The translations under genes were made by a program, and so were the position numbers. From contig CABVRV010000039.1 of assembly GCA_902500755.1 (NCBI GenBank), positions 1-32,534 of the forward strand: a DNA stretch of 32,534 bases. Reading direction: 5' to 3'. Under the pieces are notes generated by a model. The model was not told where the DNA came from. It saw only the letters and a program-made list of their open reading frames with translations, and did no database searches. The first letter of the stretch is position 1; each line of letters opens with the position of its first letter. Positions 11,954 to 32,449 of this stretch are shown piece after piece. This DNA is from an uncultured Nitrospira sp. Lineage in GTDB: Bacteria > Nitrospirota > Nitrospiria > Nitrospirales > Nitrospiraceae.

Positions 11954-13399
11954 CTACTTGATGCCTTGTCCAGCTGACCTTGGAGCAAACATCTCAAAGA
12001 TGCTTGGTTCACGCTCCATATAGTCCGGTGGGAAGAAGTTAAAACGCCTCCACAACTCGTACCAGAGAGGGACACGATTGAGGATCACCCACCCTAATAC
12101 TCTTGTTCCTTGCCGGACCTGAGCTTGCTCCGGCCAGGGTTGAGGATCGTCCGGGTCAGGCACGACCCAGAATCGGTAATTCCCTTTGCCATCGTCGATC
12201 TGATCGACCACCTTGATCACACCTGACCGAGTACCAGCCATGAGCCCTGGCCAGGCCGGCAATGGAATAGCCGGCACTCCAAAGAACAGGATCTTGACTT
12301 TCCGTCCAGGACTTAAAAGGGGAGCATCCAACCCTTCGGCCACCATTTCGATAGCCGGATCGCTTGCGAGAGGTGAAATGGTGACCAGATTCTCACCTTG
12401 CTTGACGGTTTCGTTAATCCCGACTCGAGCCATTTTGACGACGGTTCCATCCATGGGCGCATAAAGCTTGGCCGCTTCAATACGTTGCTGGACGCCTTGC
12501 TGCTTATAGGACATATCTGCGAGCTGTTCGGTAGCCTTGGCAGCTTCAGCCACCGCATTGTCACGTGATGCCATGGCATCGATGAGTTTCTGATTCACAT
12601 CGGCCGTAATCTGATCGCGACCGAAGTTCAGAGCCGATCTGCTCTGTTCTGCAGCCAGAAGGTTGGCCTGAGCTGCTTGCAGAGCTGCTTTGCTCCCGAT
12701 TTCAGTTTGGATCGTCAATTCGAGTTCTCGTTGTGAGACGAGTCCATCCCTTACGAGTTGTCGGTGTCGATCGACGTTGAGTTGCGCTGTATCGACGTCG
12801 ATCTTAGCCGCTTCGACCTTTTGTTGGGCCTCTCGCACGCGGTTATCAGCCTCGACCACCCGGGCTTCTGCCGAGGGAACCGCAGCCTGGACCAATTTCC
12901 TCATCTCAACGATCCGTTTGGTGAGTTGATCCGCCCTGCCTAACGCTGCTTGGCGTGTTTTTTCTAACGCGTCCCTGCGCTGTTCGAACAACGGAAGGAT
13001 CTCAGGAGCCATATAGGTCGGGTCATAGTCCTCAAGCTCGCCGACGAGCTCGCCCTTTTTAACCTTGACACCTTCAAAGATATGCCATGCCTTGACTCGG
13101 CCGGTAATCCGAGATTCGATCTGTTGCGGACGATCATAGGGTGTATAGGCCGAGACTGTGCCCTGTGCGCTGATCGTCTGTGTCCAGGGTACGAACTCAA
13201 GTATGATGAGAAACACAAGAAGAATCGTGAGGATGGCTCGCGATGCCGTGAACATCCCGCCGGAAAGTTTCACCGCCTCCCAGCATGGCAACGTTGACAA
13301 GGCCGATCCCTGTTCTATCGTGATTGCCTCCAGACCAACACCCTTCCTTGCGAGCGCACGTTCTCCACTTCTTTCGAGACCACCACCTAGGCTAGCCAT
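11954..13399 (-). CDS. HlyD-type membrane-fusion adaptor (copy A)
   Basis: This 481-residue periplasmic adaptor should bridge the inner-membrane ABC-type protein and a TolC-like channel. A cytoplasmic N-terminus of ~50 residues precedes one transmembrane helix (53-72), followed by PWTQTISAQGTVSAYTPYD. A biotinyl-lipoyl half-domain comes next (ITGRVKAWHIFEGVKVKKGELVGEL). A long alpha-helical hairpin (about 130-300) is rich in Ala, Glu and Gln. The second lipoyl half follows (LYAPMDGTVVKMARVGINETVKQGENL), then a beta-barrel. The C-terminal WVILNRVPLWYELWRRFNFFPPDY is distinctive and is also present in copy B. The start has GGAGG at ideal spacing. It is the last gene of the leftward operon, 51 bp after the ABC-type gene. 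The substrate is unknown. Confidence 0.92.
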   Translation of the reverse strand: MASLGGGLERSGERALARKGVGLEAITIEQGSALSTLPCWEAVKLSGGMFTASRAILTILLVFLIILEFVPWTQTISAQGTVSAYTPYDRPQQIESRITGRVKAWHIFEGVKVKKGELVGELEDYDPTYMAPEILPLFEQRRDALEKTRQAALGRADQLTKRIVEMRKLVQAAVPSAEARVVEADNRVREAQQKVEAAKIDVDTAQLNVDRHRQLVRDGLVSQRELELTIQTEIGSKAALQAAQANLLAAEQSRSALNFGRDQITADVNQKLIDAMASRDNAVAEAAKATEQLADMSYKQQGVQQRIEAAKLYAPMDGTVVKMARVGINETVKQGENLVTISPLASDPAIEMVAEGLDAPLLSPGRKVKILFFGVPAIPLPAWPGLMAGTRSGVIKVVDQIDDGKGNYRFWVVPDPDDPQPWPEQAQVRQGTRVLGWVILNRVPLWYELWRRFNFFPPDYMEREPSIFEMFAPRSAGQGIK

Positions 13400-13450
13400 G
13401 GAGCCTCCATAAATTTACCTGTGTTAATGGGCCAATTGAACCATTGCTCA

Positions 13451-15127
13451 TTATGCATGGGCATGGTGCAGCATAATCCGACGATCTGCATGATCCGTCA
13501 GGTTTGGATCCGTTGAGACGAAGATCACCGACCATGCTTCGTCTTTAGAGCACAGGCGACGCAGCACCCTTTCTCTCAACGATGGCTCAAGCGCGTGAAT
13601 TAGCCCATCGAATATCAGGACTTGCGGATGGCCCAGGATAGCGCGGGCCAACAAGATCTGCACGATGTGCGTCGGTGAAAGAGATTCTCCGAGCGAAGAA
13701 ACATCGGACTTCACCCCGCGTGGCAAGGCTTCGATATCTTCTTCTAGTTCGGTAAAGCGGAGGGCCCAGTTCAGGTCATCATAGGTCACATAGGAACGTC
13801 CCATGACGATGTTTTCTTCGATCGTTCCTTGAACCAACGTCAATTGAGAATCAAGCATGACACTGCGGACTTGGTTGAGGCCATTGGGATCCATGTACCG
13901 CAGATCTATTCCGTTGTACTGGACAACTCCGTTGGTCGGGGTCTCGAGACCTCCCAAGACTCTAGCCAGCGCGGTTTTGGCCCCCGTAGTCTTAGCATAG
14001 ATACCAAGCTTCTCTCCGGGCGCCACATCCAAGTTGAAACCGTCAAATACGGGAGCTCCACCGTGGATCAGACTGACACCCTTGCAGGTAACACGGACAC
14101 CCTGGGTTAAATGCTTCGGCATTCCCACCGGTGATTCAACCGAGACGTAATCTTGCTCTTGGTTGAAGACCGTATCAAGGTGGGTGAGGGCTGTGAAGAA
14201 GTAGTACACGAACCCCATGTTCTTGATGAGAGTGTCGAAATTTATAACCAGCGCACCGACCACCGCTTGGACGGCGACTAACTGCCCGAGGGTCAACTGA
14301 CCGATGGACATGAGATAAGCCGCCATGCCAAGAGCACCAGCCTGCGCGAACGCTTGTCCACCCACAGAACCTACGTACTGACGCACGAGGACACGAAACC
14401 GTGCCTTTCGAGTTTCAACATAATGATTCACGAGGTCGTTCGTTTTCTGCAGGATATACGAACGGCTGTCGGTCGCTTTAAATTGCAACGAATTCTGCGC
14501 AACCTCTTGAACCCACCGGAAGGTATCGTACTTCGCGTGTGACATGTCGAGAGTCGTCTTCAGCGCGCCGCGAGAGAGCACGAAGAACGTGATCGCAAAC
14601 CCCGCCATAAGAAGCAAGTTGAACATGAGAAAATACGGATGGTACACCATCAGCAAGAGCATACCGACCGTCCCACCCACGACCACATTGATCAAATCGA
14701 ACAGCAGGGTGGACAACGCCCGCTGCATAAAGACGGTTTCCATGAAGTAGTTCGCAATGTGAGTCTGCGAGGCCTTGAATCGATTCCGAGGAAGCTGCTC
14801 AACCATCGCCACTGTGATTCTGGCAAAGACGCGACGTTGTATGACATCGATCGCGTAAAAGTGGAATGTCTTGAACAGGCCGACGAACAACAACACCAAC
14901 AGCATGACAGCGGTCAATGTCCAGATCATGACCGGCTGAACCGCATAGGAGAAGGTGCTGACCAACTCCTGTACGGTCAAGGGAATGATCAGGGAAAAGA
15001 ACGCGACGGCCACGGCGTAGGAAAAGATCAAGTACATGATCCTTTTCTCAGCCTTCATGGCGACGGAAAGCTGCTTCATTAACGCTTCAAACAGGCCTGG
15101 ATAACGATTGCCCTGAGGTTCTTTCAT
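13451..15127 (-). CDS. ABC-exporter-like protein with degenerate nucleotide-binding domain (copy A)
   Basis: The 558-residue protein has an exporter-type transmembrane domain (about 30-320, with hydrophobic segments and a conserved LVAVQAVVGALVINFD motif), then a nucleotide-binding-domain fold (about 345-558). The catalytic motifs are altered. Walker A reads AKTTGAKT (378-385) instead of GxxGxGKS/T, keeping only the lysine. The signature LSGGQ is LSPTH (483-487). In Walker B, IFDG replaces LLDE, so the catalytic glutamate is Gly508. The H-loop histidine is Asp540. Flanking ABC features such as LLARAI and the final DRRI strand are still clear. It is not a frameshifted relic: the frame is intact and a paralogue shares the same replacements. 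It may be a structural or regulatory pseudo-ATPase in a type I secretion-like complex. Neighbours are TolC-like and adaptor genes. Confidence 0.88.
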   Translation of the reverse strand: MKEPQGNRYPGLFEALMKQLSVAMKAEKRIMYLIFSYAVAVAFFSLIIPLTVQELVSTFSYAVQPVMIWTLTAVMLLVLLFVGLFKTFHFYAIDVIQRRVFARITVAMVEQLPRNRFKASQTHIANYFMETVFMQRALSTLLFDLINVVVGGTVGMLLLMVYHPYFLMFNLLLMAGFAITFFVLSRGALKTTLDMSHAKYDTFRWVQEVAQNSLQFKATDSRSYILQKTNDLVNHYVETRKARFRVLVRQYVGSVGGQAFAQAGALGMAAYLMSIGQLTLGQLVAVQAVVGALVINFDTLIKNMGFVYYFFTALTHLDTVFNQEQDYVSVESPVGMPKHLTQGVRVTCKGVSLIHGGAPVFDGFNLDVAPGEKLGIYAKTTGAKTALARVLGGLETPTNGVVQYNGIDLRYMDPNGLNQVRSVMLDSQLTLVQGTIEENIVMGRSYVTYDDLNWALRFTELEEDIEALPRGVKSDVSSLGESLSPTHIVQILLARAILGHPQVLIFDGLIHALEPSLRERVLRRLCSKDEAWSVIFVSTDPNLTDHADRRIMLHHAHA

Positions 15128-15255
15128 GAGTACCCCCGGTTATAAATCAGGATGTGAATCATTGGTCCCTTACTGAAGTTAATGACGCCGGCACTTAACC
15201 ACATTCATGGTTCTGCAGCCAAGCCCCCCGAATGAACTATCGACCCATGCGAACG

Positions 15256-16845
15256 CTAATCACGCCCGGAAATTGTACGACCCGATGAACCAGCCGCATA
15301 TAATGGGTTACCATATTTTCCGAGGACGTTCTCCGCGAGTGACTTCGACAACGCGCCCCTGGCCCACAACATCCCTCCTCGGGCCACGGCATAGTCGGCT
15401 TGGGCACGGTAGAGCTCGTAAGCCGCTTCGACGACGGCGCGCTCGCGCAAGTTGACGAACAACACACTCGTCGCTCCCATGTTGAATCGAGCCCGTTCAC
15501 CTTCTTCCAACGTTTTGGCCAAGCGAAGAGCTTCCGTTGCGGCCTTCACTCGGTCTCTTGCCCTCACAATGGCCGAGAGCCAGTTGTCCACATCGATCGA
15601 GACCTGACGCTCCGTGTAGGCCTGCTTATACGCCAACCGTGTCTGTTCAGCCTCAGCATGAAGGACCTTCCCGCGGGCGCCTCGATTGAACAACGGCATG
15701 CTGAAGATAGCATTCATATGGTAGGCGAACCCCCCAAAATAGTAGATAGCGCCCGTCACCGGCCCCCCCGCAACCGTGAGCTTTGGAAGTAGATTATTCT
15801 TCGCCAGTTTCAGCTCGATATTGTTCAATTTGGCTTCAATGTAAAGATCGCGCACTTCTGGACGATCCTCCGTGGCTTCCACCTTGAAGGCCGCCACATC
15901 CTCTTCGCTCGGCAACGGCGTTTCCCCCTGAAATTCTGGGGCCCATTCAGGACGGGGTGTCACAGGTTGGCCGTCTTCCCAGAGAAAGAGTGCAAGCTTA
16001 TATTGCTCATACTCGACCTTCCGTTGCGCGGCAATGGCAGCCTCTCGTCGTTTCTGAACTTCCTGTTGGGCTTCGACTACGTCGATCGGAGCGACTGCCC
16101 CGGCTTTGGACCTCCCCTCAACCATGCGATAGCGCTCTTCTGCTACGGCCAGGGCACGTCTCACCACATCAGCTTGTTTGACCGCGACCTGCCAATCCCA
16201 ATACTGGATAGCTCCGGCGAGATAGAGATCTTGTCGTTTCTGGGCCACCTTCACCTCGGCCTGTGGCCCGGCGAGCTCCGCCTGTTGAAACTCGGCATAC
16301 TCTTCGTTGACCATGAATCCCCGCAGAAGATTAAATGCTCCGCCGATTATGGCCATTTGCTGCGGATAGAAACCTTGCAGGTCTTGAGGGATCGCCACCG
16401 CGGGACTCACAATACGTTGGGGCCTGACGCCGTCGAAACCACCAAGAGTGGATCTATCCCCAAGGCCGTTACGGACACCAGCGTAGATCTCCCATCCCCA
16501 GGGGTGACCGACCTTGAGCATGGTATCGTTATAGCCCGCAGTCAATGTATTCACGCCAGAAACGTTCGTCAGATTATACGTTTGATACCGGTCGACCTCA
16601 AGCTCGTTCCGAACCTTAGGCTCCCACGCTCCTAACGCCTTCAGGACTTTCGCCCGAGCCCGTGCTCGCTCGAGTCCAGTGGCCCGGAGGAACGGATGGG
16701 TCAACTCAATCCTGGCCAGCACTTCTTCAATGGTCAGGGGAGCCGTGCGAGTCGACTGAGCCTGCACGGCACTTGAGTCGATCACCGGTTCCGCCAGTGC
16801 AGTCTCCGACACCATTATCAACGAGAACAGCAATAGAAGGATCAA
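15256..16845 (-). CDS. TolC-like outer-membrane efflux protein (copy A, third of three)
   Basis: This 529-residue protein has a signal peptide (hydrophobic core, then ALA before EPVIDSS). Two repeated coiled-coil/outer-membrane-factor halves follow, typical of the TolC/OEP family: VLARIELTHPFLRATG near the N-terminus, EVKVAQKRQDLYLAGAIQYWDWQVAVKQADV in the middle, and VSIDVDNWLSAIVRARDRV and VLFVNLRERAVVEAAYELYRAQADYAVARGGMLWARG in the second half. The apparent start is TTG at 16845. I accept it because the same AAGGAGCATCC leader precedes it as in the two sister genes. It forms the exit duct across the outer membrane with the adaptor and ABC-type proteins. It is the most diverged of the three copies and carries extra residues around 95-140. 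Confidence 0.92.
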   Translation of the reverse strand: MILLLLFSLIMVSETALAEPVIDSSAVQAQSTRTAPLTIEEVLARIELTHPFLRATGLERARARAKVLKALGAWEPKVRNELEVDRYQTYNLTNVSGVNTLTAGYNDTMLKVGHPWGWEIYAGVRNGLGDRSTLGGFDGVRPQRIVSPAVAIPQDLQGFYPQQMAIIGGAFNLLRGFMVNEEYAEFQQAELAGPQAEVKVAQKRQDLYLAGAIQYWDWQVAVKQADVVRRALAVAEERYRMVEGRSKAGAVAPIDVVEAQQEVQKRREAAIAAQRKVEYEQYKLALFLWEDGQPVTPRPEWAPEFQGETPLPSEEDVAAFKVEATEDRPEVRDLYIEAKLNNIELKLAKNNLLPKLTVAGGPVTGAIYYFGGFAYHMNAIFSMPLFNRGARGKVLHAEAEQTRLAYKQAYTERQVSIDVDNWLSAIVRARDRVKAATEALRLAKTLEEGERARFNMGATSVLFVNLRERAVVEAAYELYRAQADYAVARGGMLWARGALSKSLAENVLGKYGNPLYAAGSSGRTISGRD

Positions 16846-16870
16846 GAAAGGATGCTCCTTTGTTGCTGAA

Positions 16871-18415
16871 TTAATCGCGTCCTGGTTGCTTGTAGCCGTT
16901 CATACCCGCAGCCGTTAGCGGGTTCCCGTACTTGGCCAATTCGCTTTCTGGCCAGGGCTTCGACAACACACCCCTGGCCCACAACATGCCTCCACGCGCC
17001 ACCGCGTAGTCAGCCTGCGCCCGATACAGCTGGTACGCTGATTCCACCACGTTGCGCTCACGGAGGTTCACAAAGAGGACGGTAGTGGCACCCATATTGA
17101 ACCGGGTCCGTTCGCCCTCCTCCAGCGTCTTGGCCAACCGCAGGGCCTCCATCGCCGCCTTCACTCGGTCTCTCGCTCGCACGATGGCCGAGAGCCAGTT
17201 GTCCACGTCAATGCTGACTTGTTGCTCGGCGTACAGCTGGCTCAAAACCAATTGTTGCTGCTCCGCTTCCGCGATCATGACCTTTCCACGCCCTTCCCGC
17301 TGGAACAGCGGCATCGCAAACTGCGTTTCGAACCCATACCCGACTCCCATAAGCCAGTCCGCTGGGGCATCCATCCGTCCTCCCTTAAAATCAAACTTCG
17401 GGAGCAGGTGGTTCTTGGCGAGCTTGAGATCAATATTGTTCATCTTGGCTTCGATGTAGTAGTTTCGCACTTCCGGCCGATCTTCTTTCGCCTCTACTTT
17501 GTAGGCCGCGACCTCGTCATTGGTCGGGAGCGGTGTTTCGCCCTGGAATTCCGGCGCCCATTCCGGTCGAGCCGTCACCGGCTCACCGTTTTCCCAGAGA
17601 AAGAGGGACAGCTTGTACTGCTCATACTCCACCAGCCGTTGCGCGGCGATCGCGGCCTCTCGCCGATTCTGCACCTCTTGGTTGGCCTCAATGACATCGA
17701 GCGGCGCCACCCTCCCGCCCTTGGCTAGCCCTTGCACCTGAATGAGGCGATCTTCCGCGACGGCCAAGGTCCGCTTCTGCACTTCAGCCTGCTTCACAGC
17801 CACCTGCCAATCCCAGTACTGCACGGCCCCGGCGAGATAGAGGTCTTGCCGTTTCTGCGCCACCGCAATCTCCGCCTGCGGCCCCGCGAGTTCGGCCTTC
17901 TGAAACTCGGCGTACTCCTCGTTGATCATCAGGCCGCGCAGCAGCTTGGCCGACCCACCGAAGATCATTTGCTGCTGAGGATAGAGGAGCAGTACATCAG
18001 GGATCTGTGCGTGGATGTGTTGCGTGCGGAAATCACCAAAACCGTTGCGGATCCCGCCAAGGACCCGGAAGCCCCAGGGATGCCCGACCTCGAGCTTGGT
18101 GTCGTTAAATCCCCCCGTATTCTGATCAATGGTGCTCAGGAAATTAAAAGTCTGAAAGCGAGCGGCCTCCGTAATGTTTTTGACCGTCGGTTCCCAGGCC
18201 CCGAGCGCCTTTAGGATCTTCGCCCGAGCCTGCATTCGTTCGACCCCGGTTGCCCGAAGCAGCGGATGCGTCAACTCAATACGGGCGAGCACTTCGCTGA
18301 TGGTCAGGGGCTCGGTGCGGGCAGACTGCGCGTTCAACGCGCTTGAATCGTGCACCGGTCCCGCCACGGTCGTCGCGGGAAGCATGATCAGAACCATAAG
18401 GATTAGAGCGGCCAT
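16871..18415 (-). CDS. TolC-like outer-membrane efflux protein (copy A, second of three)
   Basis: The 514-residue protein has a cleavable signal (MAALILMVLIMLP...VAG) and the same layout as its neighbours: ELTHPLLRATG, AQKRQDLYLAGAVQYWDWQV, VDNWLSAIVRARDRV and LFVNLRERNVVESAYQLYRAQ. It ends in QPGRD, as does the sister at 18439. A longer frame runs to 18550, but the start at 18415 sits behind AAGGAGCATCC and directly precedes the signal peptide. The 23-bp spacer to the upstream sister and the 25-bp spacer downstream resemble each other, which supports tandem duplication of a gene-plus-spacer unit. Why three channels are kept is unknown; they could serve different adaptors or conditions. Confidence 0.92.
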   Translation of the reverse strand: MAALILMVLIMLPATTVAGPVHDSSALNAQSARTEPLTISEVLARIELTHPLLRATGVERMQARAKILKALGAWEPTVKNITEAARFQTFNFLSTIDQNTGGFNDTKLEVGHPWGFRVLGGIRNGFGDFRTQHIHAQIPDVLLLYPQQQMIFGGSAKLLRGLMINEEYAEFQKAELAGPQAEIAVAQKRQDLYLAGAVQYWDWQVAVKQAEVQKRTLAVAEDRLIQVQGLAKGGRVAPLDVIEANQEVQNRREAAIAAQRLVEYEQYKLSLFLWENGEPVTARPEWAPEFQGETPLPTNDEVAAYKVEAKEDRPEVRNYYIEAKMNNIDLKLAKNHLLPKFDFKGGRMDAPADWLMGVGYGFETQFAMPLFQREGRGKVMIAEAEQQQLVLSQLYAEQQVSIDVDNWLSAIVRARDRVKAAMEALRLAKTLEEGERTRFNMGATTVLFVNLRERNVVESAYQLYRAQADYAVARGGMLWARGVLSKPWPESELAKYGNPLTAAGMNGYKQPGRD

Positions 18416-18438
18416 CGAAGGATGCTCCTTGTGCCGGA

Positions 18439-19992
18439 TTAATCGCGGCCCGGTTGTGTGTAGCCGTTCATGCCCGCCGCCGTCAGCGGATTTCCATACT
18501 TCGCCAAAGACTCCGTCGGCCAAGGCTTCGACAACACGCCTCTTGCCCACAACATGCCTCCACGCGCCACTGCGTAGTCGGCTTGCGCCCGATACAGCTG
18601 GTACGCCGACTCCACCACGTTGCGCTCCCGGAGGTTGACGAAGAGCACAGTGGTCGCGCCCATGTTGAATCTCTTGCGCTCACCTTCCTCCAGCGTCTTG
18701 GCCAACCGCAGCGCTTCCGTCGCGGCCGTCACCCGGTCCCTGGCCCGCACGATCGCCGAGAGCCAGTTATCCACGTCGAAGCTGACTTGCTGCTCGGTAT
18801 ATTGCTGTTTCAATGCCAATTGTTGTTGGCTCACTTCCGCGTATAGGACCTTCCCACGTGCTTCCCGTTGGAACAGCGGCATCTCAGCGTGTACGCCGGT
18901 CCGATACCCGATTCCCACAATCCAGTCCGTGGCCCCTTCGGTCGGCCCCCCTTCAAGCAGGACCTTCGGGAGCAGGTGGTTCTTGGCAAGCTTGATATCG
19001 ATATTGTTCATCTTGGCTTCGATATAGAGGTCACGCACTTCCGGCCGATCTTCTTTCGCCTCCACTTTGTAGGCCGCGACCTCCTCGTTGGTCGGGAGCG
19101 GAGTCTCGCCTTGGAATTCCGGCGCCCATTCCGGTCGTGGCGTCACCGGCTCGTTCTTCTCCCAGAGAAAAAGGGACAGTTTGTACTGCTCATATTCCAC
19201 CTTCCGCTGGGCAGCGATGGCGGCCTCTCGCCGCTTCTGCACCTCTTGGTTGACCTCAATGACATCGAGCGGCGCAACCTTCCCACCCTTGGCCAATCCT
19301 TCGACCTGGACTAAGCGGTCTTCGGCAACGGCCAAGGCCCGTTTCACAATTTCAGCCTGCTTGACGGCGACCTGCCAATCCCAATATTGCACGGCCCCGG
19401 CGAGATAGAGATCTTGCCGTTTCTGCGCGACCTTGATCTCCGCCTGCGGCGCCGCGAGCTCGGCCTGTTGAAACTCAGCGTACTCTTCGTTGATCATGAG
19501 GCCGCGCAGCAGCTGGAACGACCCCCCGACGATGAGTTGCTGCTGAGCATAGAAGCCCTGCATATCAGGGATAATAGCAATAGTACCTTGATTGCCGTTA
19601 TCTCCGTAGCCGTTGCGCACCCCGCCCTGGACCTTGAAGCCCCAGGGATGCCCGACCTCAAGCTTGGTGTCGGCAAATCCCCCGTTATGGGTATCAAAGG
19701 TCGTGGGAGACGTCGTGAGATTCCACGTTTGAAAACGTTGAGTCCGTGTAATGTTCTTGAACGTCGGTTCCCATGCCCCGAGCGCTTTCAGGATCTTCCC
19801 CCGTGCCTTCGTTCGCTCAGCTCCTGTCGCCTGAAGCAGCGGATGGGTCAGCTCGATTCTTGCCAGTACTTCATCGATGGTCAGGGGAGCGGTGCGTGTC
19901 GACTGCGTTTGCACAGCACGCGAGTCGATCACCGGGTCCGCCAGTGCGGTCATTGGCAGGAGAGTTACAAGGGCCAACACCAGAGCGATCAT
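18439..19992 (-). CDS. TolC-like outer-membrane efflux protein (copy A, first of three)
   Basis: This 517-residue outer-membrane factor starts with a signal peptide (MIALVLALVTLLPMTALA, cleaved before DPVIDSR). It has two OEP repeats with EIKVAQKRQDLYLAGAVQYWDWQV and VSFDVDNWLSAIVRARDRV, and ends in QPGRD. It is the promoter-proximal gene of the leftward operon and is divergent from the first NhaR-like gene across 142 bp. The start at 19992 is set by AAAGGAGCATCC upstream; the longer frame to 20031 would place a charged stretch before the signal peptide. It is most similar by eye to the middle copy, with long shared blocks in the second half. It is expected to work with the adaptor and ABC-type proteins encoded downstream. 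Confidence 0.92.
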   Translation of the reverse strand: MIALVLALVTLLPMTALADPVIDSRAVQTQSTRTAPLTIDEVLARIELTHPLLQATGAERTKARGKILKALGAWEPTFKNITRTQRFQTWNLTTSPTTFDTHNGGFADTKLEVGHPWGFKVQGGVRNGYGDNGNQGTIAIIPDMQGFYAQQQLIVGGSFQLLRGLMINEEYAEFQQAELAAPQAEIKVAQKRQDLYLAGAVQYWDWQVAVKQAEIVKRALAVAEDRLVQVEGLAKGGKVAPLDVIEVNQEVQKRREAAIAAQRKVEYEQYKLSLFLWEKNEPVTPRPEWAPEFQGETPLPTNEEVAAYKVEAKEDRPEVRDLYIEAKMNNIDIKLAKNHLLPKVLLEGGPTEGATDWIVGIGYRTGVHAEMPLFQREARGKVLYAEVSQQQLALKQQYTEQQVSFDVDNWLSAIVRARDRVTAATEALRLAKTLEEGERKRFNMGATTVLFVNLRERNVVESAYQLYRAQADYAVARGGMLWARGVLSKPWPTESLAKYGNPLTAAGMNGYTQPGRD

Positions 19993-20076
19993 ATAGGGAT
20001 GCTCCTTTACATCGGGTGGCGGACGGCGCACACAGTAGCAATCTCCCGCTTATTTTTCAAAATAGATAAAACGGAT

Positions 20077-20105
20077 TGGAGTTATCGGCTAATCCGATGT
20101 ATAGT
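20077..20105 (+). promoter_or_regulatory. Putative promoter of the first NhaR-like gene with embedded operator
   Basis: TGGAGT (20077-20082), a 17-bp spacer and TATAGT (20100-20105) give a sigma70-like promoter with a weak -35. The spacer contains ATCGGCTAATCCGAT, a perfect 5-bp inverted repeat that satisfies the LysR-type T-N11-A rule. An overlapping CGGATT...AATCCG repeat extends it. The position suggests autoregulation and possibly control of the divergent tolC operon. Confidence 0.5.
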
Positions 20106-20134
20106 GTCCCCCTCAATTGGAGCACTAGGGCCAT

Positions 20135-23967: not shown

Positions 23968-24051
23968 CTGGCGTCTCTCCTTCCTTGTCCCTCGCTTCTT
24001 ACCAGCCTTCATGAGCGGTACGAACGGTGGTTCCGCTCGACTCTGTACGAT

Positions 24052-25023: not shown

Positions 25024-25029
25024 GGCGCA

Positions 25030-25413
25030 CTACTTGTCGAACGCCCAGTTGAACATCAACGCGCCACCGTCGGCGACATTCGCATGGTGGTGGCCAGCAT
25101 GATAGGGCCTATGGCCGTCATGTAAATATGGATCTGTATGGATAAAGCGAACGCCATCATCCGTGGCTCGCTCCGGCAGAGAAGGGCCAAAGAACTGTGC
25201 CCCCGTGAGGTTGGCGTAGTTCGTCTTTTCGCCCGGTTTCTGTGAATTTGCAAGATTCTGTTCTTGTTGAAGCTTCGTTCCCACTTCTGCCCAGGCCGGA
25301 GTCATGGCCAACCCGACTAGGGCGCACAGCGTGAGAGCCATGAATATTCCGACGAGGGGTGTAACTTCTGTCGTTCCTCGGCCCGCCGTGTTGGTGATGA
25401 TTCGTGCGTTCAT
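25030..25413 (-). CDS. Small His-rich exported protein (copy A)
   Basis: This 127-residue protein has a long signal peptide with a hydrophobic core (about 20-38) and an AWA site near residue 42. The mature part is about 85 residues. Its C-terminus holds VRFIHTDPYL, a histidine cluster (DGHRPYHAGHHH) and ADGGALMFNWAFDK. The same spaced pattern (VR-x-IHTDP ... H ... ADG-x-A-x-M-x-x-W-x-F) occurs in the exported protein at 32102, so this is a family, though I do not recognise it. The start at 25413 is fixed by AAAGGAGGG upstream; the frame extends to 25629 but that part lacks coding character. It is the first gene of a leftward cluster with USP, sthA and cytochrome c. It is a candidate substrate or periplasmic partner of the tripartite system; this is inference. 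Confidence 0.75.
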   Translation of the reverse strand: MNARIITNTAGRGTTEVTPLVGIFMALTLCALVGLAMTPAWAEVGTKLQQEQNLANSQKPGEKTNYANLTGAQFFGPSLPERATDDGVRFIHTDPYLHDGHRPYHAGHHHANVADGGALMFNWAFDK

Positions 25414-25727: not shown

Positions 25728-27185
25728 ATGGATAGCGAAGGCGGTTCCGTAGGCAGTCATGCTCTCGACCTCGGGAACAAGGTCCGTTCCCTCGTTCACG
25801 GTGAATCCGGCTCGGAAGAAATCGCCATCGACGAGCTCGCTACCGCAACCAAGCTTCAATCCTGGGAGGCGGCTCAGCTTCCCAATGGATGGAGATTTTC
25901 TTCCCGTCTGCCGATCATTCTGTTCGTCTTTTTCTTCCTGACTATCTTTCTTGTTCCTTGGACGCAGACGGTGACCGTGACCGGCCAAATGTCGGCTTAT
26001 ACTCCCTTCGAACGACCACAAGACATCGAAGCTCAAATTACCGGCCGTATCAAAAAATGGCACGTGCTCGAAGGAGACCAGGTCAAGTTGGGAGATCTGA
26101 TTCTTGAGCTGGAGGACAATGACCCCAACTTCATGTCACCCGACTTATTGGTCTTTTTGAATCAACGGAAAAAAGCGTTGGAGAAAACTCAAGAGGCGGC
26201 GTTGGCCAGAGTAGACCAGCTGGACAAGCGCATTGTCGAAATGCGAAATCTGGTGAAAGCCGCCGTCCCATCAGCCGAGGCTCGCGTGGTCGAGGCTGGC
26301 AACAGGGTGCGGGAAGCGCACCAAAAGGTCGAGGCAGCCAAAATTGCCGCAATTACCGCAGCCCTGAACGTAGACCGGCACAAACAATTGGCCAAGAGGG
26401 GGTTGGTCTCCCAGCGAGAACTGGAATTGACGATCCAAGCGGACACCGCCGGCCAAGCCGATGTCGAGGGGGCCCAAGCGAATCTCCAGGCAGCCGAACA
26501 AGCCATGAAATCCCTCGGCTACGGTCGAGATCAAGTCAGCGCAGAAATGTTACAGCGGTTGCTCGATGCGGAGGCGGGTCGCGATGCCTCGGTGGCCGAA
26601 GCGGCCAGAGTCGGCGACCAACTGGCCGATGTGTCGCTACGGTTCTCAAATGCCGAACAACGTCGGGTTGCCGGCAGGATTGTGGCTCCAATCGACGGCA
26701 CCGTGGTCAAGATGGCCAAAGTCGGTGCCGGCGAAACGGTGCGTCAAGGCGATACCATCATCCGTCTTTCGCCCACCAGTACGGACAAAGCGATTGAGAT
26801 GACCGCGGATGGGCTGGATGCTCCCTTGTTGAATGCCGGTCGGGAAGTAAAGATTCTTTTCTATGGAATCCCTGCGATACCGCTTCCGGCATGGCCTGAA
26901 CTGATGGCCGGGACCTATTCCGGTGTGATTAAAGTGATCGACCAAGTCGACGATGGAAAAGGCAACTACCGTTTCTGGGTCGTTCCTGACCCTCAGGATC
27001 GCTCATGGCCCGAACAATCTCACGTCCGGCAGGGCACGAAAGTGATGGGGTGGGTCATCCTGAACCGTGTTCCCCTCTGGTATGAGCTGTGGCGTCGGTT
27101 CAATCTGTTCCCGCCGGATTATGAGGAACGATCGCATACGGTGATCGATACCCTTCTCCCGAAGGCGGGGCGAGGCTCGAAGTAA
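25728..27185 (+). CDS. HlyD-type membrane-fusion adaptor (copy B)
   Basis: This 485-residue paralogue of the adaptor at 11954 has the same order: acidic cytoplasmic N-terminus, one transmembrane helix (59-77) followed by PWTQTVTVTGQMSAYTPFE, lipoyl half-motif ITGRIKKWHVLEGDQVKLGDL, long helical hairpin with KAAVPSAEARVVEAGNRVREA, second lipoyl half IVAPIDGTVVKMAKVGAGETVRQGD, beta-barrel, and a WVILNRVPLWYELWRRFNLFPPDY tail. Unlike in copy A it is on the opposite strand to its ABC-type partner, convergent with it (68 bp between the stops), and has its own promoter. The ATG at 25728 has no strong ribosome-binding site. The role is expected to be the periplasmic bridge in the copy B complex. Confidence 0.92.
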   Translation: MDSEGGSVGSHALDLGNKVRSLVHGESGSEEIAIDELATATKLQSWEAAQLPNGWRFSSRLPIILFVFFFLTIFLVPWTQTVTVTGQMSAYTPFERPQDIEAQITGRIKKWHVLEGDQVKLGDLILELEDNDPNFMSPDLLVFLNQRKKALEKTQEAALARVDQLDKRIVEMRNLVKAAVPSAEARVVEAGNRVREAHQKVEAAKIAAITAALNVDRHKQLAKRGLVSQRELELTIQADTAGQADVEGAQANLQAAEQAMKSLGYGRDQVSAEMLQRLLDAEAGRDASVAEAARVGDQLADVSLRFSNAEQRRVAGRIVAPIDGTVVKMAKVGAGETVRQGDTIIRLSPTSTDKAIEMTADGLDAPLLNAGREVKILFYGIPAIPLPAWPELMAGTYSGVIKVIDQVDDGKGNYRFWVVPDPQDRSWPEQSHVRQGTKVMGWVILNRVPLWYELWRRFNLFPPDYEERSHTVIDTLLPKAGRGSK

Positions 27186-27253
27186 TTTCTCGGCGCGCTC
27201 CGCGTCCCGATTCCTCCAAGCGTTTTCCTCGATGAATTGAGAACTCTCGCCCC

Positions 27254-28954
27254 TCATGCGGGTAACATGGGCACCGCGGCGCCCGCATCATCTAAGGTGA
27301 TGCGGCGATCGACATAAGGCGTCAAGTCAGGGTCGTTCGACACGAAGATCACGGTCCAAGATTCATTTTTTGAGCAGAGACGCTGGAGAATGGTATTCCG
27401 CAACGTAGGCTGCATGTCATGAATCATGCCGTCAAAGATTAGAATCTGCGGTCGCCCGATGATGGCGCGCGCGAGCAACATGCGCAACATATGCGAAGGT
27501 GCCGGTATTTCTCCGAAGGCGCTGATATCGGAGTTGATGCCTAATGGGAGAGCCGCGACCTCGTCCTGGAGTTGAGTCAACTGGAGCGCCCAACGGACAT
27601 CGTCGTACGAGATGTAGGGACGTCTCCAAACAATGTTGTCCGCAATCGTCCCATCGATGAGGGACAACTGTGAATCGATCATGAAGCCGCGGCATCGGTT
27701 CACAAGGCTTAAATCAAGATGCCGAAGTTCGACATCGTTATAGGAAATGATGCCGCTCGTCGACACTTCGAGGCCGGCCAGCACTTTCGCCAGTGCCATT
27801 CTCGCCGCGGTTGTCTTCGCGTAAATCGCAATCTTTTCGCCTGGTCTCACGGTCAAATCCAGATTGTCGAACAGGGACGCGCCGTTGCGAGTCAATCCCA
27901 ACCCATGACATGTCACCCGGATGCCGTGCGTCTTTGGGTCGGGGAGAGTCACCGACGACGTCGGAGGCCGATGGTGCTGGTCACTCGGCAACGCAAAGAA
28001 TGCATTCAATTCCTCCAACGCCGTGAAAAAGAAATACACCTGCCCCATACTCTTGACCACCGCATCAAAGTTAATGAGGAGGCTTCCGACGACGACCTCG
28101 ACCGCCACGAGTTGGCCGAGCGTCAACTGCCCGACGGAGAGGAGCCAGCCGGCCAAAGCCAGGGCGCCGCTGTGTGCGAGGGCTTGTCCTCCTACCGAGG
28201 CCAGGAATTGACGCAACAGGACGGAGAACCGCGCTCGTCGACACTCCATATACTTCTTCGCCAGTTCATCGGTTTTCTGCATCAACAACGTGTGGCTGTC
28301 GGTCGCCTTCATGTGGAGTACGTTCTGCGAGATTTCCTGAATCCAGTGCAGCACATCATACTTGGCGTGAGACATTTCGATGGTGGTTCGCAGTCCGCCA
28401 CGTGAGAGGACGAAGAAAATGAGGGCTGACCCAAGGAGGAGGACCAGGTTAAAAAGGATGAAGTACGGATGGTAGAAGGCCAACATGATCATGCCGATCA
28501 TGCCGCCCACCAACACATGGACCAAATCCACAAGAAGGGCCGATAACGCACGCTGCATGAATGCGGTTTCCATAAAGCAATTCGAGACACGTGGTTTGAA
28601 TCCCTCAAATCGCACATGGGGCAGCTTCTGAGCCATCGCGAAGGCGGTCCTCACAAACAGTCGACGCTGGAGCACTTCGACTGCATAGTATTGCAGCGCT
28701 CGAAATACTCCGACGAACGCCAGGACGACGACCATGATAATGGCCAGCGTGGCGATCATGATGGGTTGGATCGCAAAGGAAAACGTGTTGACCAGTTCTT
28801 GAACGGTTAAGGGGACGATGAGGGAGAAAAGTCCGATGACGAGCGCATACGAGATCACGAGCGCGAGAATTCGGCGCTCAAGCCTCAAGAAACGCCCCAA
28901 ATGCCGTAACACGTCGATGAGACTCGGGTGATGATCACCGAGAGGCTGTGCCAT
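27254..28954 (-). CDS. ABC-exporter-like protein with degenerate nucleotide-binding domain (copy B)
   Basis: This 566-residue paralogue of the protein at 13451 shares an exporter-type membrane domain (about 28-320, SYALVIGLFSLIVPLTVQELV through LVAVEVVVGSLLINFD) and a nucleotide-binding fold (about 345-566). Degeneration goes further here. Walker A is AKTTAARM (379-386), so even the lysine is arginine (~385). The signature is APSH (485-488) where LSGG would be. Walker B reads IFDG with Gly509 for the catalytic glutamate, and the H-loop position is Asp541. The frame is intact over its whole length, and blocks such as IFDGMIH and VIFVSNDPDLT parallel copy A, which argues for selection rather than decay. 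It is 108 bp downstream of its TolC-like partner and convergent with the adaptor gene. Confidence 0.88.
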   Translation of the reverse strand: MAQPLGDHHPSLIDVLRHLGRFLRLERRILALVISYALVIGLFSLIVPLTVQELVNTFSFAIQPIMIATLAIIMVVVLAFVGVFRALQYYAVEVLQRRLFVRTAFAMAQKLPHVRFEGFKPRVSNCFMETAFMQRALSALLVDLVHVLVGGMIGMIMLAFYHPYFILFNLVLLLGSALIFFVLSRGGLRTTIEMSHAKYDVLHWIQEISQNVLHMKATDSHTLLMQKTDELAKKYMECRRARFSVLLRQFLASVGGQALAHSGALALAGWLLSVGQLTLGQLVAVEVVVGSLLINFDAVVKSMGQVYFFFTALEELNAFFALPSDQHHRPPTSSVTLPDPKTHGIRVTCHGLGLTRNGASLFDNLDLTVRPGEKIAIYAKTTAARMALAKVLAGLEVSTSGIISYNDVELRHLDLSLVNRCRGFMIDSQLSLIDGTIADNIVWRRPYISYDDVRWALQLTQLQDEVAALPLGINSDISAFGEIPAPSHMLRMLLARAIIGRPQILIFDGMIHDMQPTLRNTILQRLCSKNESWTVIFVSNDPDLTPYVDRRITLDDAGAAVPMLPA

Positions 28955-29062
28955 GCTATGTATGTATCACCGATTGTTCATGCCGTCTCGATATTTCAGA
29001 CCGTCCCAACGACGAACCTCAGCTCCGATACGCACGCCATGCGCTTACGATCGAGGGTCACC

Positions 29063-30532
29063 TCAGCGGTAGCTGGCTCTCGTGGATTCGCTCGGGCTCT
29101 TCGCCCACGTTCCAATGGCCCACTGGTAGAGGGCTAGGGCCTTGTGGTACTCGGCCTTCGCCCGAATGACCTGACTTTGCGAATCGATGGTGTTGCGTTC
29201 CCGAAGATTGACGAACAGCACGCTGCTCGTCCCAATGCTGAAACGATACCGCTCGCCTTCTTCGACGATTTCAACGAGACGGAGGGCTTGCGAGGCTTCT
29301 TCGATTCGCTCCCTTGCACGATCCATCGCAGACCGCGCATTTTCGATATCGACAAGAACCTGATTTTCCCGGTACTGTTGCGCCACCACGAGTCGTTCCG
29401 CCTGACCCTGTGCGTGAAGCACTTCACCGCGGCCGCGGCGTTGGAACAGAGGAATCCTCAGTTCGGCACCGAATCGGTACCCTAACCCAAGCACAAATTT
29501 CTCCGGAGTGCGCGCCGGTGCTGCTTCCAAGTTCAGGCTTGGGAGCAAACTGTTCTTCGCCAACGCGAGGTCAATGTTGTTGATCTTCGCCTCCACCTCG
29601 AGCGCCTTCACTTCCGGCCGTTCCTTCATTGCCTCCGCCTTGTGTACCATGACGTCGTCCAGGGTTGGTGCTGGCCGTTCCGCCGGAAAGTCTGGAACAC
29701 GATCCAACGGCGGAATCATCGGAGAACCCTTCTCCCACAGAAACATGGAGAGCTTGAACTGCTCCTGCTCCAGTAGTCTCCGGGTGGCGATGGCAACTTC
29801 ACGCCGCCGGTGGACTTCCTGGCCGGCTTCCGTGACATCGATTGGAGCCACCGCACCGGCCTTCGCGCGCTCTTCCACCTGCTTATACCGATCTTCCGCC
29901 ACGGTCAGCGCTCGTTTCTGCACGTCGAGCAGCTTTGCCGCAGCTACCCACTCCCAGAATTGATGAGCAGCGGCCAGGAAGAGATCCTGCCTCGTTTGAG
30001 TAATCGTGATTTCTGCGCGAGGAGCCGCTAGTTCCGACCGTTGGAGCTCAGCGCGTTCGGGGTTGATCATCAGGCCTCTGAGCAAGGGGAAGAAGCCGCC
30101 CAGGATGACTTGCTGATTACCGTCACCGAACGATAGGTCCGGAATTCTCGCGTCACCGATCGCTTGACGGAACCCGGCGCTGCCTCTAAAACCCAGAGGG
30201 TGCAGCGCTTCAACCAGCGTGTCGTTAAAACCGACCGTTTGAGTGCCCTTACTCGGGTCGGTACTTGAAATAAAACGTTCCAGCTCCATATCGTTCACAA
30301 GGATGGGGTCAAAGGCGCCGAGCGCCTTCAGCATCTGCCCTCTGGCGATCGTCTTTTCGGCTCCGGCCCCCCGCAAGAGGGGATGCGCCCGGTCGATCCG
30401 GGTGTGGAGCTCGTCAAGACTGAATGGAATGGGCGGGAGCGATTTGGCGGGCGCAACGTCCGCCGCCGGTCCCGCGTAGGTGATCATCGGCTGCATGAGG
30501 ATCCAGCCGAAAACGAACGACAGGATTGTCAT
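29063..30532 (-). CDS. TolC-like outer-membrane efflux protein (copy B)
   Basis: The 489-residue outer-membrane factor has a signal peptide (MTILSFVFGW...ITYAG). The OEP pattern includes ELHTRIDRAHPLLRGAG, EITITQTRQDLFLAAAHQFWEWVAAAK, NNIDLALAKNSLLPSLNLE and SSVLFVNLRERNTIDSQSQVIRAKAEYHKAL. It matches the three copy A channels block by block but is more diverged and lacks their GRD C-terminus. The start at 30532 has AAAGGAGTG at good spacing; a longer frame to 30607 has no such support. It is the only channel of copy B. Between it and the USP gene lies the sthA relic. Its presumed partners are the ABC-type gene downstream and the inverted adaptor. Confidence 0.92.
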   Translation of the reverse strand: MTILSFVFGWILMQPMITYAGPAADVAPAKSLPPIPFSLDELHTRIDRAHPLLRGAGAEKTIARGQMLKALGAFDPILVNDMELERFISSTDPSKGTQTVGFNDTLVEALHPLGFRGSAGFRQAIGDARIPDLSFGDGNQQVILGGFFPLLRGLMINPERAELQRSELAAPRAEITITQTRQDLFLAAAHQFWEWVAAAKLLDVQKRALTVAEDRYKQVEERAKAGAVAPIDVTEAGQEVHRRREVAIATRRLLEQEQFKLSMFLWEKGSPMIPPLDRVPDFPAERPAPTLDDVMVHKAEAMKERPEVKALEVEAKINNIDLALAKNSLLPSLNLEAAPARTPEKFVLGLGYRFGAELRIPLFQRRGRGEVLHAQGQAERLVVAQQYRENQVLVDIENARSAMDRARERIEEASQALRLVEIVEEGERYRFSIGTSSVLFVNLRERNTIDSQSQVIRAKAEYHKALALYQWAIGTWAKSPSESTRASYR

Positions 30533-30677
30533 GGAAACACTCCTTTCACGCAATGAGTGAGACATGGAGAGTATCCGTCCGTTCAGAACACAACTCGCGA
30601 TGTACAAGCCGCACGCGCACCAAGAGAAACATTATTCGTCAAAATAGTCGATGGCACATGATCCAGCCTTGGGAAAC

Positions 30678-30812: not shown

Positions 30813-30833
30813 GGCTCCAGCACGTTCCCCATC

Positions 30834-31715
30834 TCAGCCCTTTACCACAGCGGTTTCCGGTGACTCGTGAACCGGAACAGCCAACACCGGGGTATGCGCG
30901 TGGCGCACGACCCGTTCCGTGGTGCTGCCGCACAGGGCGTCGAGAAACCCATGGTGCCACCGTGTAGACATGACGACGAGGTTGAAATCAGTTTTCTCCA
31001 TCGCGGCGAGAATCTCGTCAACGACCACACCGGAGGAAAAGATCCATTGCCACTGCCAACCGGGGATCCCCGGAAGCCGCAGATGCGGCGCGTGCAAGGG
31101 ATCGCCCACATACAACAGATGAAAGGAGACCTCGCGAGCTTTCAAACCTGCCGCCAACACGCAGGCAGCTTCCACCGCGAATTGAGGGGAAGGCCGGTGA
31201 TCCACTGGAATCAGGATACGCTGCAACCGGCACTCACCACTTGCTAAAGAAACGAACCCTTTGCTGAGTTCCGGGACGAACAAGGTCGTAATCCGAGATT
31301 GTCGCGAGATATCAGCCGCCACCGGATTCTGTAACCAGTCACTCAACTGATCCCGTTCATGAGAGGCTACAACCACCATATCAGCCGGGCTCTGCTGCAG
31401 ACACTGCATCACGGAAACTATTGGATCCTTGCTGGCGGCTTTAATTTTTCTGACACCGAGCCCCAGCTGTATCAATTGCTCCTTAGTCCCCTCTCGCGGC
31501 AGCACCCCCCAGCGGGTGAGCGTCGCGCGCACGCGAGGAAACTCCTCAAAATTCGTCTCCGCATGGTCGGGATCTACATGCATGATCGTGAGATCCGTCC
31601 CCATGTCGACTGCCAGTCTCAACGCATGACCAAACGCCGCCATACTGGGAGATGAGAAATCGGTTGGGTGGAAAATGTGTGCCATCCCGTTCTTGCTTTG
31701 AACCGAGAGCGTCAT
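30834..31715 (-). CDS. Tandem universal stress protein (copy B)
   Basis: The 293-residue protein has two USP domains and parallels the USP at 24052 along its length: HIFHPTDFSSPSMAAFGHALRLAVDMG...LTIMHVDPDHAE, FPRVRATLTRWGVL, then RILIPVDHRPSPQFAVEAACVLAAGL, and near the C-terminus RWHHGFLDALCGSTTERVVRHAHTPVLAVPV. The last segment contains the GSTTERV loop similar to the USP ATP-binding signature; the first domain lacks one. The ATG at 31715 is chosen because AAAGGAGA stands 7 bases before it; the frame reaches 31766. It is a cytoplasmic stress-type protein. The conserved pairing with the small exported protein and the tripartite genes in both modules suggests a shared regulon. Confidence 0.9.
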   Translation of the reverse strand: MTLSVQSKNGMAHIFHPTDFSSPSMAAFGHALRLAVDMGTDLTIMHVDPDHAETNFEEFPRVRATLTRWGVLPREGTKEQLIQLGLGVRKIKAASKDPIVSVMQCLQQSPADMVVVASHERDQLSDWLQNPVAADISRQSRITTLFVPELSKGFVSLASGECRLQRILIPVDHRPSPQFAVEAACVLAAGLKAREVSFHLLYVGDPLHAPHLRLPGIPGWQWQWIFSSGVVVDEILAAMEKTDFNLVVMSTRWHHGFLDALCGSTTERVVRHAHTPVLAVPVHESPETAVVKG

Positions 31716-32101
31716 CGGCGTATCTCCTTTCAAACCACGAAAGCTGACACAATGACCGGAGGCCATCCGCAGATCCTATGCAGCTGGGCGATTACGTCGT
31801 AGTTCTCGCCGCCAGCAACTAGAATCATATTGTTTGCTCTGTTGGGGCCTTCTTGTGGAGTACATAAACGCCTCCTCTATTCATCGTCATGCTCTGGACC
31901 ATCGATAGGGGACCTAAGGACTCACGCACCTCCTCAGGCGAGCTCCCAGACTTGTTAGACTCATCGGAGTTCATATACGGGCGCATATCCCCCCGACGCT
32001 CTCTCCGCTGTAGGCCACCGTCGGCTTCCTCCTTCTGGGTCCTAGCGAGTCGAAGGAGAAAGACGCTGGTTTTTTTCCTCCCTACCAACCGTCCAAGATG
32101 A
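31716..32101. other. Intergenic region between copy B small protein and USP genes
   Basis: This 386-bp stretch is much longer than the 6 bp between the corresponding genes in copy A. It contains one doubtful small leftward frame (31825-31986, listed separately) and no hairpin or repeat I can support. It may hold an independent promoter for the USP gene. Confidence 0.5.
31825..31986 (-). CDS. Possible small protein, doubtful
   Basis: A 53-codon leftward frame starting MRPYMNSDESNKSG and ending HKKAPTEQTI lies between two same-strand genes. It is hydrophilic, with no signal peptide, membrane segment or recognised motif. A GGGGGG run stands too close to the first ATG to be a convincing ribosome-binding site, and the frame continues upstream to 32088 without better support. 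I list it only because it fills an otherwise empty interval. It may well be chance. Confidence 0.2.
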   Translation of the reverse strand: MRPYMNSDESNKSGSSPEEVRESLGPLSMVQSMTMNRGGVYVLHKKAPTEQTI

Positions 32102-32449
32102 TCACGTGCCGAAGGTCCAGCCGAGCATCACCGCGGCGCCATCGGCCGCATGCGAGAGTATCGAGTGTCTATAAAAAGGATGCGGGCCGGGAGCAGCAGG
32201 GATGTGCGGATCAGTATGAATAAGCCTCACTGCGCTTTCGAAAGTCGACTGCGGTGCAGGCCCCTGACGGTGGTCGCGCTCAACACTAGGCGTCTGAACA
32301 GGCTGCGGCCGGTCCCGCGCTTCTGGGAAATCAGCATCGAAGGACGCCTGCTCTTCAAGCTGAGGGCCGACATGCAAGCCCGCGGTCACCCCATTCGAGG
32401 CGAAGCTCCACACCATGAGTAGTATGATGAAACCCATAACGCGTTTCAT
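32102..32449 (-). CDS. Small exported protein (copy B), paralogue of the copy A His-rich protein
   Basis: The 115-residue protein has a compact signal peptide (MKRVMGFIILLMVWSF, cleavage probably after VTA near residue 23). A hydrophilic, proline- and glutamine-containing linker follows, then a C-terminal ~48-residue segment with VRLIHTDPHI, several histidines and ADGAAVMLGWTFGT. That segment aligns with the C-terminus of the protein at 25030 (VRFIHTDP ... ADGGALMFNWAF), while the linkers differ. The start at 32449 is supported by GGAAGGAAGG upstream; the frame extends to 32494. It heads the leftward copy B cluster just as its paralogue heads copy A. Histidine, tryptophan and acidic residues could bind metal or heme, but this is speculation. 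The family is unrecognised. Confidence 0.75.
   Translation of the reverse strand: MKRVMGFIILLMVWSFASNGVTAGLHVGPQLEEQASFDADFPEARDRPQPVQTPSVERDHRQGPAPQSTFESAVRLIHTDPHIPAAPGPHPFYRHSILSHAADGAAVMLGWTFGT

Follow-up and report, generated by a model that had tools for sequence, protein, structure and literature searches.

In the type I secretion system (T1SS) HlyB-HlyD-TolC, an ABC exporter, an HlyD adaptor and a TolC channel are encoded together. In SbmA/BacA (SLiPT), for which an origin from ABC transporters through loss of the nucleotide-binding domain (NBD) has been proposed, an ABC-type membrane domain works without an ATPase and, in SbmA, is powered by protons, according to the accessible text of PMC13316013. 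Here we analyze a contig of an uncultured Nitrospira sp. (assembly GCA_902500755.1, contig CABVRV010000039.1 or C39, genome size 3.83 Mb), which was taken in its entirety (32,534 bases; hereafter, the window) and carries two copies, A and B, of an HlyD-TolC-ABC gene trio in which the ABC subunit has lost the catalytic residues of its ATPase domain. If the reading we propose below is true, these genes and their relatives form a natural series from degenerate ATPase to no ATPase inside a recurrent HlyD-TolC operon, and it becomes testable whether a tripartite exporter needs ATP hydrolysis to run.

The trio shares with T1SS its gene content, a best structural match to HlyB/D, and adaptors that keep the motif RxxxLxxxxxxS, the TolC-docking pattern of adaptors; this loose pattern was matched by 42 of 42 HlyD_A-type and 49 of 51 HlyD_B-type adaptors, and the three products would be expected to form a tripartite assembly. 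It differs in that the ABC subunit has no catalytic ATPase motifs, that one to three TolC genes, and once four, belong to a trio, and that an NhaR-type regulator is found in many loci; no substrate gene of the trio was identified, no search having been aimed at substrates. T1SS cut-offs of NCBIfam were missed by HlyD_A (type_I_hlyD, 56 against 208.65 bits), ABC_A (LssB, 113.7 against 693.1 bits) and TolC_A1 (type_I_sec_TolC, 52.8 against 225.15 bits). Judged from its encoded proteins, the trio is built like a T1SS, yet it lacks the ATPase motifs on which membership of that class depends.

The top NCBIfam matches of both window ABC proteins were NHLM- and LssB-type ABC exporters (TIGR03796, TIGR03375, and TIGR03797; 101–122 bits), but the scores lie far below the cut-offs of 693–853 bits, the N-terminal third of the models is missing and the ATPase is degenerate. 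The likeness to SbmA/BacA would lie in an ABC-type membrane domain that works without an ATPase, for which three NBD-less genes behind HlyD-TolC are candidates. SbmA/BacA, as far as the accessible text of PMC13316013 describes them, import peptides and have a glutamate ladder and an additional TM0, whereas the trio has mostly retained its dead domain and is linked to HlyD and TolC. Searches of open-licence papers, several of them for narrow phrases, listed no description of the trio in Nitrospira or of any type I exporter whose ATPase is inactive.

An ABC subunit with a degenerate ATPase domain

Motif residues were counted in a 44-row alignment of ABC subunits, with rows chosen from the lineages fetched and the duplicate loci L066 and L136 dropped. 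The first and second glycines of the P-loop were kept in no row and the third in only 3 of 44, the Walker-B glutamate was replaced throughout (by glycine in 43 rows and serine in one), and no row had glycine at the third LSGGQ position. The H-switch region read [ST]-x-D-P with invariant D and P, histidine occurring in none of the four switch columns, while the Walker-B aspartate persisted in 39 of 44 rows. Alignment to P-glycoprotein chains gave the same motif replacements, and no row listed in a motif comparison of ABC homologues had regained LSGGQ or the Walker-B glutamate. The ABC subunit is thus deficient in the functional motifs expected of an ATPase-driven exporter (Walker A, signature, Walker-B Glu, and H-switch), and the label pseudo-ABC, given to it in an earlier, sequence-only reading of the window, is borne out.

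An AlphaFold model of ABC_A (predicted local distance difference test score, pLDDT, 70.8; predicted template modeling score 0.67) had ten-residue pLDDT means mostly of 80–91 in the ATPase domain and of 36–88 in the membrane domain, and its best fold match in the PDB was HlyB in the HlyB/D complex (8dck; E = 3.3e-19, TM-score 0.49–0.59). The membrane domain is modeled too poorly for single residues to be discussed, and a phmmer search with this domain alone against PDB chains returned no match, so that E54 and other positions are not alignable with HlyB.

Ratios of nonsynonymous to synonymous substitution rates (dN/dS) show that the dead domain of ABC_A is under strong constraint. Among 41 A-type sequences, the median dN/dS was 0.035 in the dead domain and 0.084 in the membrane domain, and the former was lower in 279 of the 284 pairs (out of 820) in which both dS values lay within 0.15–2; dN itself was lower in the dead domain in 757 of all 820 pairs. 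These ratios rule out that ABC_A is a decaying pseudogene.

In another family of the same order (hereafter, f3), from which 10 trios were fetched, three genomes of one genus (L232, L233, and L234) had as their only match a frame of 339–348 aa that comprises the membrane domain alone. These frames run into a stop codon ahead of the next gene, follow HlyD and TolC, have NhaR in divergent orientation, and evolve at dN/dS 0.25–0.30 (three pairs); blastx of the ~450 bases downstream against ABC_A and ABC_B found nothing. Further downstream come a DabB-like gene (PF00361), an unassigned gene and DabA (PF10070, 889 bits in L232).

Among 396 genomes drawn from the phylum, the ABC profile matched 111 at E ≤ 1e-120, comprising 53 of 55 in the window genus, 47 of 56 in other genera of the family, and 11 from a single other family of the order; outside the order there were no matches at this strict threshold, which omits distant ABC exporters by design. 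Nearly all genomes drawn from the window genus have the ABC subunit, which also occurs in N. defluvii and N. moscoviensis. In the GTDB collection, a scan found 181 relatives, and the 80 best ones were titled Nitrospira, Nitrospiraceae, Nitrospirae or Nitrospirota, apart from Nitrosospira-titled records whose ABC sequences nest within Nitrospira in the ABC tree.

Degenerate ABC genes also occur in other arrangements. N. defluvii and its kin carry, directly after the first, a second such gene (L098:11753-13483) that is ~47% identical to ABC_B and is itself followed by a 4HB_MCP sensor-like membrane protein. A solitary pseudo-ABC gene (L127:5837-7522 and L128:10121-11854, in N. defluvii and another genus) adjoins histidine-kinase-type and sigma-54 response-regulator genes, and no HlyD or TolC lies within the stretch fetched.

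Origin of the two copies

The sequence-only reading had described two collinear copies of a module, with paralogous genes in the same order, and the features it listed were all found in the window. Read leftward, the B half holds SEP_B (SEP being our label for small exported protein), USP_B (a universal stress protein, USP), a 28-codon sthA relic, TolC_B, ABC_B and the inverted HlyD_B, which lies on the strand opposite to ABC_B and TolC_B. The A half holds SEP_A, USP_A, SthA, a cytochrome c, the LysR-family regulators NhaR2 and NhaR1 on the opposite strand, TolC_A3, TolC_A2 and TolC_A1, ABC_A and HlyD_A, and thus includes the two regulators, the two additional TolC genes and the cytochrome that had been noticed as extras. 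Within-window BLASTP reproduced every claimed pair: HlyD_A and HlyD_B (60% identity over 468 aa), ABC_A and ABC_B (53% over 560 aa), TolC_A1–3 and TolC_B (44–48%, against 67–78% among the three), NhaR1 and NhaR2 (65%), USP_A and USP_B (55% over 270 aa), and SEP_A and SEP_B (37%, over 52 C-terminal residues only; E = 1e-6 or 5e-9 depending on the setting). The relic in B is also real, its 28 residues on the minus strand being 79% identical to the window SthA (E = 1.7e-11). Because of these pairwise E-values, the paralogies are not due to chance.

The phylogenies suggest a single duplication of the trio and its NhaR regulators at the base of the genus, firm for ABC and compatible for HlyD and TolC. 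ABC_A and ABC_B formed sister clades with a support of 100 in a tree of 61 rows (45 A and 16 B), from which N. moscoviensis branches off earlier. HlyD and TolC trees were built on row subsets. A careful HlyD tree kept A and B together on one side of a branch, but weakly (43/84); a quick tree with more rows grouped HlyD_B with the C type, the trio type of other genomes (83). A and B were not joined in the free TolC tree, and joining them was not rejected (approximately unbiased test, p-AU = 0.258). A recent duplication within this genome is ruled out, because the A and B trios each recur across the genus, in many of its genomes, and make up distinct clades.

The A trio of the window genus and the C trio of other genomes mostly occupy one slot, from purE/purK to the side of pseudouridine synthase and arginase, within which the trio is reordered and inverted between A and C loci. 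Three TolC genes were present in 27 of the 31 A loci with enough flank, and in the TolC tree all three TolC_A lines extend over the genus. Compared with the nearest relative (L134), DNA identity was 81–86% for the TolC_A genes (15256-20031), 92–93% for HlyD_A, ABC_A and NhaR1, and 86% for purK; dN/dS of TolC_A1–3 was 0.145–0.174. Exchange or diversifying pressure on surface loops is a possible source of this TolC_A divergence.

The remaining genes of the two halves have other histories. Neighbors were counted at loci with at least 7.5 kb upstream, which excluded 13 of 44 A, 6 of 14 B and 5 of 41 C loci as too short, and the duplicate loci L066, L136, L137 and L138 were dropped. Within 9 kb, SEP, USP and SthA were found at none of 31 A loci, those of the window lying just beyond, and a cytochrome at one, the window itself; the 36 C loci had none of the four; at the eight B loci with enough flank, SEP and SthA were each present five times and USP and cytochrome three times each. 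USP_B has its nearest kin, 86% identical, in L105/G011, whereas USP_A falls outside the B-linked lineages of the USP tree, next to a USP at 57% identity (support 91) in G406, a genome taken for N. moscoviensis. The window SthA likewise falls outside the B-linked SthA group (ten rows from eight genomes, support 97). The relic matches the best B-linked SthA at 24 of 27 positions and the window SthA at 22 of 27, a weak but consistent sign that it descends from a B-linked sthA.

A whole-block duplication covering SEP, USP, SthA and the cytochrome is ruled out by these trees and by the counts at A and C loci. The sequence-only reading had the entire module duplicated as a block, for which all pairs would have to split at one node; this remains tenable for HlyD, TolC and ABC, with NhaR1/NhaR2 compatible, and does not hold for SEP, USP, SthA and the cytochrome, which have separate histories. 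A second SEP-USP-SthA set of different ancestry may have entered the space from HlyD_B to the cytochrome, and the B-linked sthA would have decayed later; in L043/L136 and in L116, B and A loci adjoin without this insert.

NhaR regulators and accessory genes

NhaR lies beside 25 of 31 A trios and 7 of the 10 f3 trios, one of the latter merely a fragment. The gap between NhaR1 and TolC_A3 contains a conserved region of ~48 bases, with the cores TATACAT and CCAATC[CT]G[CT]TTTATCTATTTT in all 29 non-duplicate A loci that have NhaR1 beside TolC, and an ATCG-N6-8-CGA dyad in 23 of them; the cores are conserved although synonymous sites have come close to saturation. Dyads of the form T-N11-A are typical of LysR regulators. 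In the window, ATCG-N7-CGAT by itself occurs once against 1.16 expected, not above chance, so that conservation is the evidence for the dyad. With up to 3 mismatches allowed, the window's genome has one such site, and NhaR1 therefore looks local. We infer from this promoter that NhaR1 would control the A trio through the dyad.

SEP, NhaR2, USP, SthA and NqrA were searched for within the genus, in 80 genomes each, SEP by profiles. The window NhaR2 scores above the NCBIfam NhaR equivalog cut-off, and NhaR2-type genes (full-length matches of at least 71% identity, leaving out a broken G410 match of 71% over half the protein) occurred in 16 genomes. NqrA was present in 13 of these 16 and in 11 of the 64 others (Fisher test, P = 2.7e-6, uncorrected for kinship). 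Camejo et al. 2017 (PMC5596200), in the accessible text, list NhaR for comammox genomes and N. moscoviensis and not for N. defluvii, which fits the distribution observed here.

SEP was found in 14 genomes, 13 of them with NhaR2 and 11 with Na+-translocating NADH:quinone oxidoreductase (Na+-NQR) genes. It lies near a B trio in 11 and apart from the trio in two (G081 and G127), while G020 is too fragmented to tell. The SEP islands that lack a trio (L187, L188, and L190) contain NhaR2 with a carbonic anhydrase (L187 and L188; twin-arginine start by eye), NqrA near NhaR2 and SEP (L188 and L190), or DabA/DabB genes (L187). By eye, the N-terminal segment of SEP is signal-like, which would point to Sec rather than T1SS export. 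Just before SEP, many islands encode a second small, apparently exported family (cluster c29, no Pfam match; e.g., L131:1550-1972).

In f3, DabA/DabB adjoin HlyD-TolC-ABC in 4 of 10 loci, and SthA follows HlyD-TolC-ABC in one (L235). The sequence-only reading had also placed the linked stress, redox and small exported proteins in one system with the transporter genes. Linkage outside this genome, which it called for, was found, both near B trios of SEP genomes and in the f3 locus with SthA; the functional link has partial support, in that the trio or its islands are repeatedly accompanied by NhaR and, in fewer cases, by SthA and by inorganic-carbon or Na+ genes, another family included. Such recurring neighbors suggest a pH, Na+ and inorganic-carbon regulon. 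Studies of haloalkaline and Na+ genes in Nitrospira (Na+-NQR and N-ATPase; PMC8115096, PMC10308925, PMC12342949) offer a parallel, NhaR2 and SEP genomes often having NQR, but their accessible text does not mention the trio or SEP.

Proposed function and alternatives

We propose, with moderate confidence, that the trio is an NhaR-controlled, type-I-like exporter that is not driven by its own ATPase and is perhaps driven by an ion gradient, with the dead domain as scaffold or gate. Its core in Nitrospirales comprises an HlyD adaptor, a TolC channel and an HlyB-fold inner-membrane subunit with a conserved pseudo-ATPase. After duplication, the A copy would have kept the old purE/purK slot, gained two TolC genes and come under divergent NhaR1 control. 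The B copy sits in variable NhaR2 islands that, depending on the genome, also encode SEP, USP, SthA, carbonic anhydrase or cytochrome c; Na+-NQR or Dab genes adjoin related islands. A shift in pH, Na+ or inorganic carbon could then cause NhaR to turn on a conduit across both membranes, whose cycle would not depend on ATP being hydrolyzed by its own domain; it would run on an ion gradient, like SbmA, or act as a gated passage. A more specific version is tentative: that an ATP-driven exporter became ion-gradient-driven within a TolC machine, its ATPase dying before the two Nitrospirales families split and then being kept as a constrained scaffold, or discarded in some, under NhaR control by Na+, pH or carbon. 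The trio may also have a non-transport role, in signaling or gating.

Several observations weigh against this proposal. The P-loop lysine persists in 32 and the Q-loop glutamine in 33 of 44 rows, and nucleotide binding is possible. In ABC_B the dead domain is looser than its own membrane part (dN/dS 0.139 vs 0.098 and lower in 10 of 76 usable pairs, out of 91 among 14 sequences; dN lower in 0 of 91), which fits decay there. Conserved acidic residues of the membrane domain are few (E27, E54, E130, and D144, in at least 47 of 48 rows), fewer than in the glutamate ladder of SbmA. NhaR stands at only 3 of 36 C-type loci (one a fragment; six f3 loci included), Dab genes and SthA accompany only the few f3 trios given above, and the association between NhaR2 and NQR ignores phylogeny. 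The HlyD and TolC trees, finally, support a joint duplication weakly or not at all.

Of the alternatives, the one that fares best is that the trio is a separate exporter and the stress genes merely share an integration hot spot. The highly variable island content and the differing genomic places of the B locus agree with this, but NhaR accompanies the trio in two families, SthA does so once in the other family, and NhaR2 is present in nearly every SEP genome; we consider it doubtful that the neighbors are there by chance.

It is rather unlikely that the ABC subunit works with an active ATPase from elsewhere, as a heterodimer or through an NBD in trans. Many exporters are heterodimers with one degenerate site, and pseudo-ABC genes lie side by side in some genomes; the second gene of such a pair is, however, likewise degenerate, and no intact ABC partner was noticed beside the trios, in flanks annotated only in part and with no search aimed at partners in trans.

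A conventional type I secretion system or drug pump driven by ATP, with an ATPase that has diverged but still hydrolyzes with unusual residues, would explain the HlyB-like fold, the overall NBD alignment, the retained lysine and glutamine, and the strong constraint on the A-copy domain. It would have to do so with the catalytic glutamate, the switch histidine and the third-position signature glycine gone in 44 of 44 rows and nearly all P-loop glycines lost, and three genomes without the ATPase domain still keep HlyD and TolC, which makes such a pump improbable. A seven-part system of SEP, USP, SthA, cytochrome, TolC, ABC and HlyD that was duplicated whole would account for the common order in the window, for SEP near B trios and for SthA behind the trio in L235, but it is very improbable given the absence of the accessory genes from 30 other A and 36 C loci, the USP and SthA trees and the SEP islands without a trio.

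Features of the window and other genes

Coordinates and supporting evidence are given in Table 1. For NhaR2, TolC_A2, SEP_A and SEP_B, likely starts were chosen (21160, 18415, 25413, and 32449, respectively), the first-start frames being longer.

Table 1 Features of the two trio copies and their surroundings in the window, with DabA genes of f3 loci.
Feature	Position	Strand	Evidence and remarks
HlyD_A, periplasmic adaptor	11954..13399	-	PF13437 above cut-off; NCBIfam type_I_hlyD far below cut-off; docking match RHRQLVRDGLVS
ABC_A, HlyB-fold exporter subunit, degenerate ATPase domain	13451..15127	-	PF00005, 36 bits; motif columns; AlphaFold2 model
TolC_A1, outer-membrane channel	15256..16845	-	PF02321
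TolC_A2, outer-membrane channel	16871..18415	-	PF02321; internal ATG picked, first-start frame from 18550
TolC_A3, outer-membrane channel, first gene in A run	18439..20031	-	PF02321
NhaR1/TolC_A3 divergent promoter region	20059..20106	-	Conserved; dyad ATCGGATTAGCCGAT at 20084-20098
NhaR1, LysR-family regulator, divergent from A trio	20135..21034	+	PF00126/PF03466; 65% to NhaR2
NhaR2, LysR-family regulator, B/stress-island type	21160..22080	+	NCBIfam NhaR equivalog, 233.4 vs 219 bits; distribution
c-type cytochrome	22091..22552	-	PF00034
SthA, soluble transhydrogenase, not B-linked lineage	22567..24012	-	NF003585, 591 bits vs cut-off 465; tree
USP_A, tandem universal stress protein	24052..25023	-	PF00582; tree
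SEP_A, small exported His-rich protein	25030..25413	-	Without Pfam family; NCBIfam match at chance level only; profile A3
HlyD_B, adaptor, inverted	25728..27185	+	PF13437, PF13533; docking match RHKQLAKRGLVS
ABC_B, exporter subunit, degenerate ATPase	27254..28954	-	PF00005, 22.3 bits, cut-off of 25 missed; motifs
TolC_B, outer-membrane channel	29063..30607	-	PF02321
sthA relic, 28 codons	30726..30809	-	Same spot before TolC_B as sthA in B loci elsewhere
USP_B, tandem universal stress protein	30834..31766	-	PF00582; 86% to USP of L105/G011
SEP_B, small exported His-rich protein	32102..32449	-	No Pfam or NCBIfam family
DabA genes of four f3 genomes	L232:8450-11728, L233:13443-16733, L234:2000-5269, L121:13978-17232		With DabB-like genes

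Two further genes lie in the left part of the window. At 2612-4132, in a conserved purEK neighborhood (cluster c13, 41 loci), a large protein belongs to PF05114, the MbnB/TglH/ChrH-type family known from pathways of ribosomally synthesized and post-translationally modified peptides. At 58-717, a 219-aa protein without a Pfam match has an N-terminus that looks signal-like by eye.

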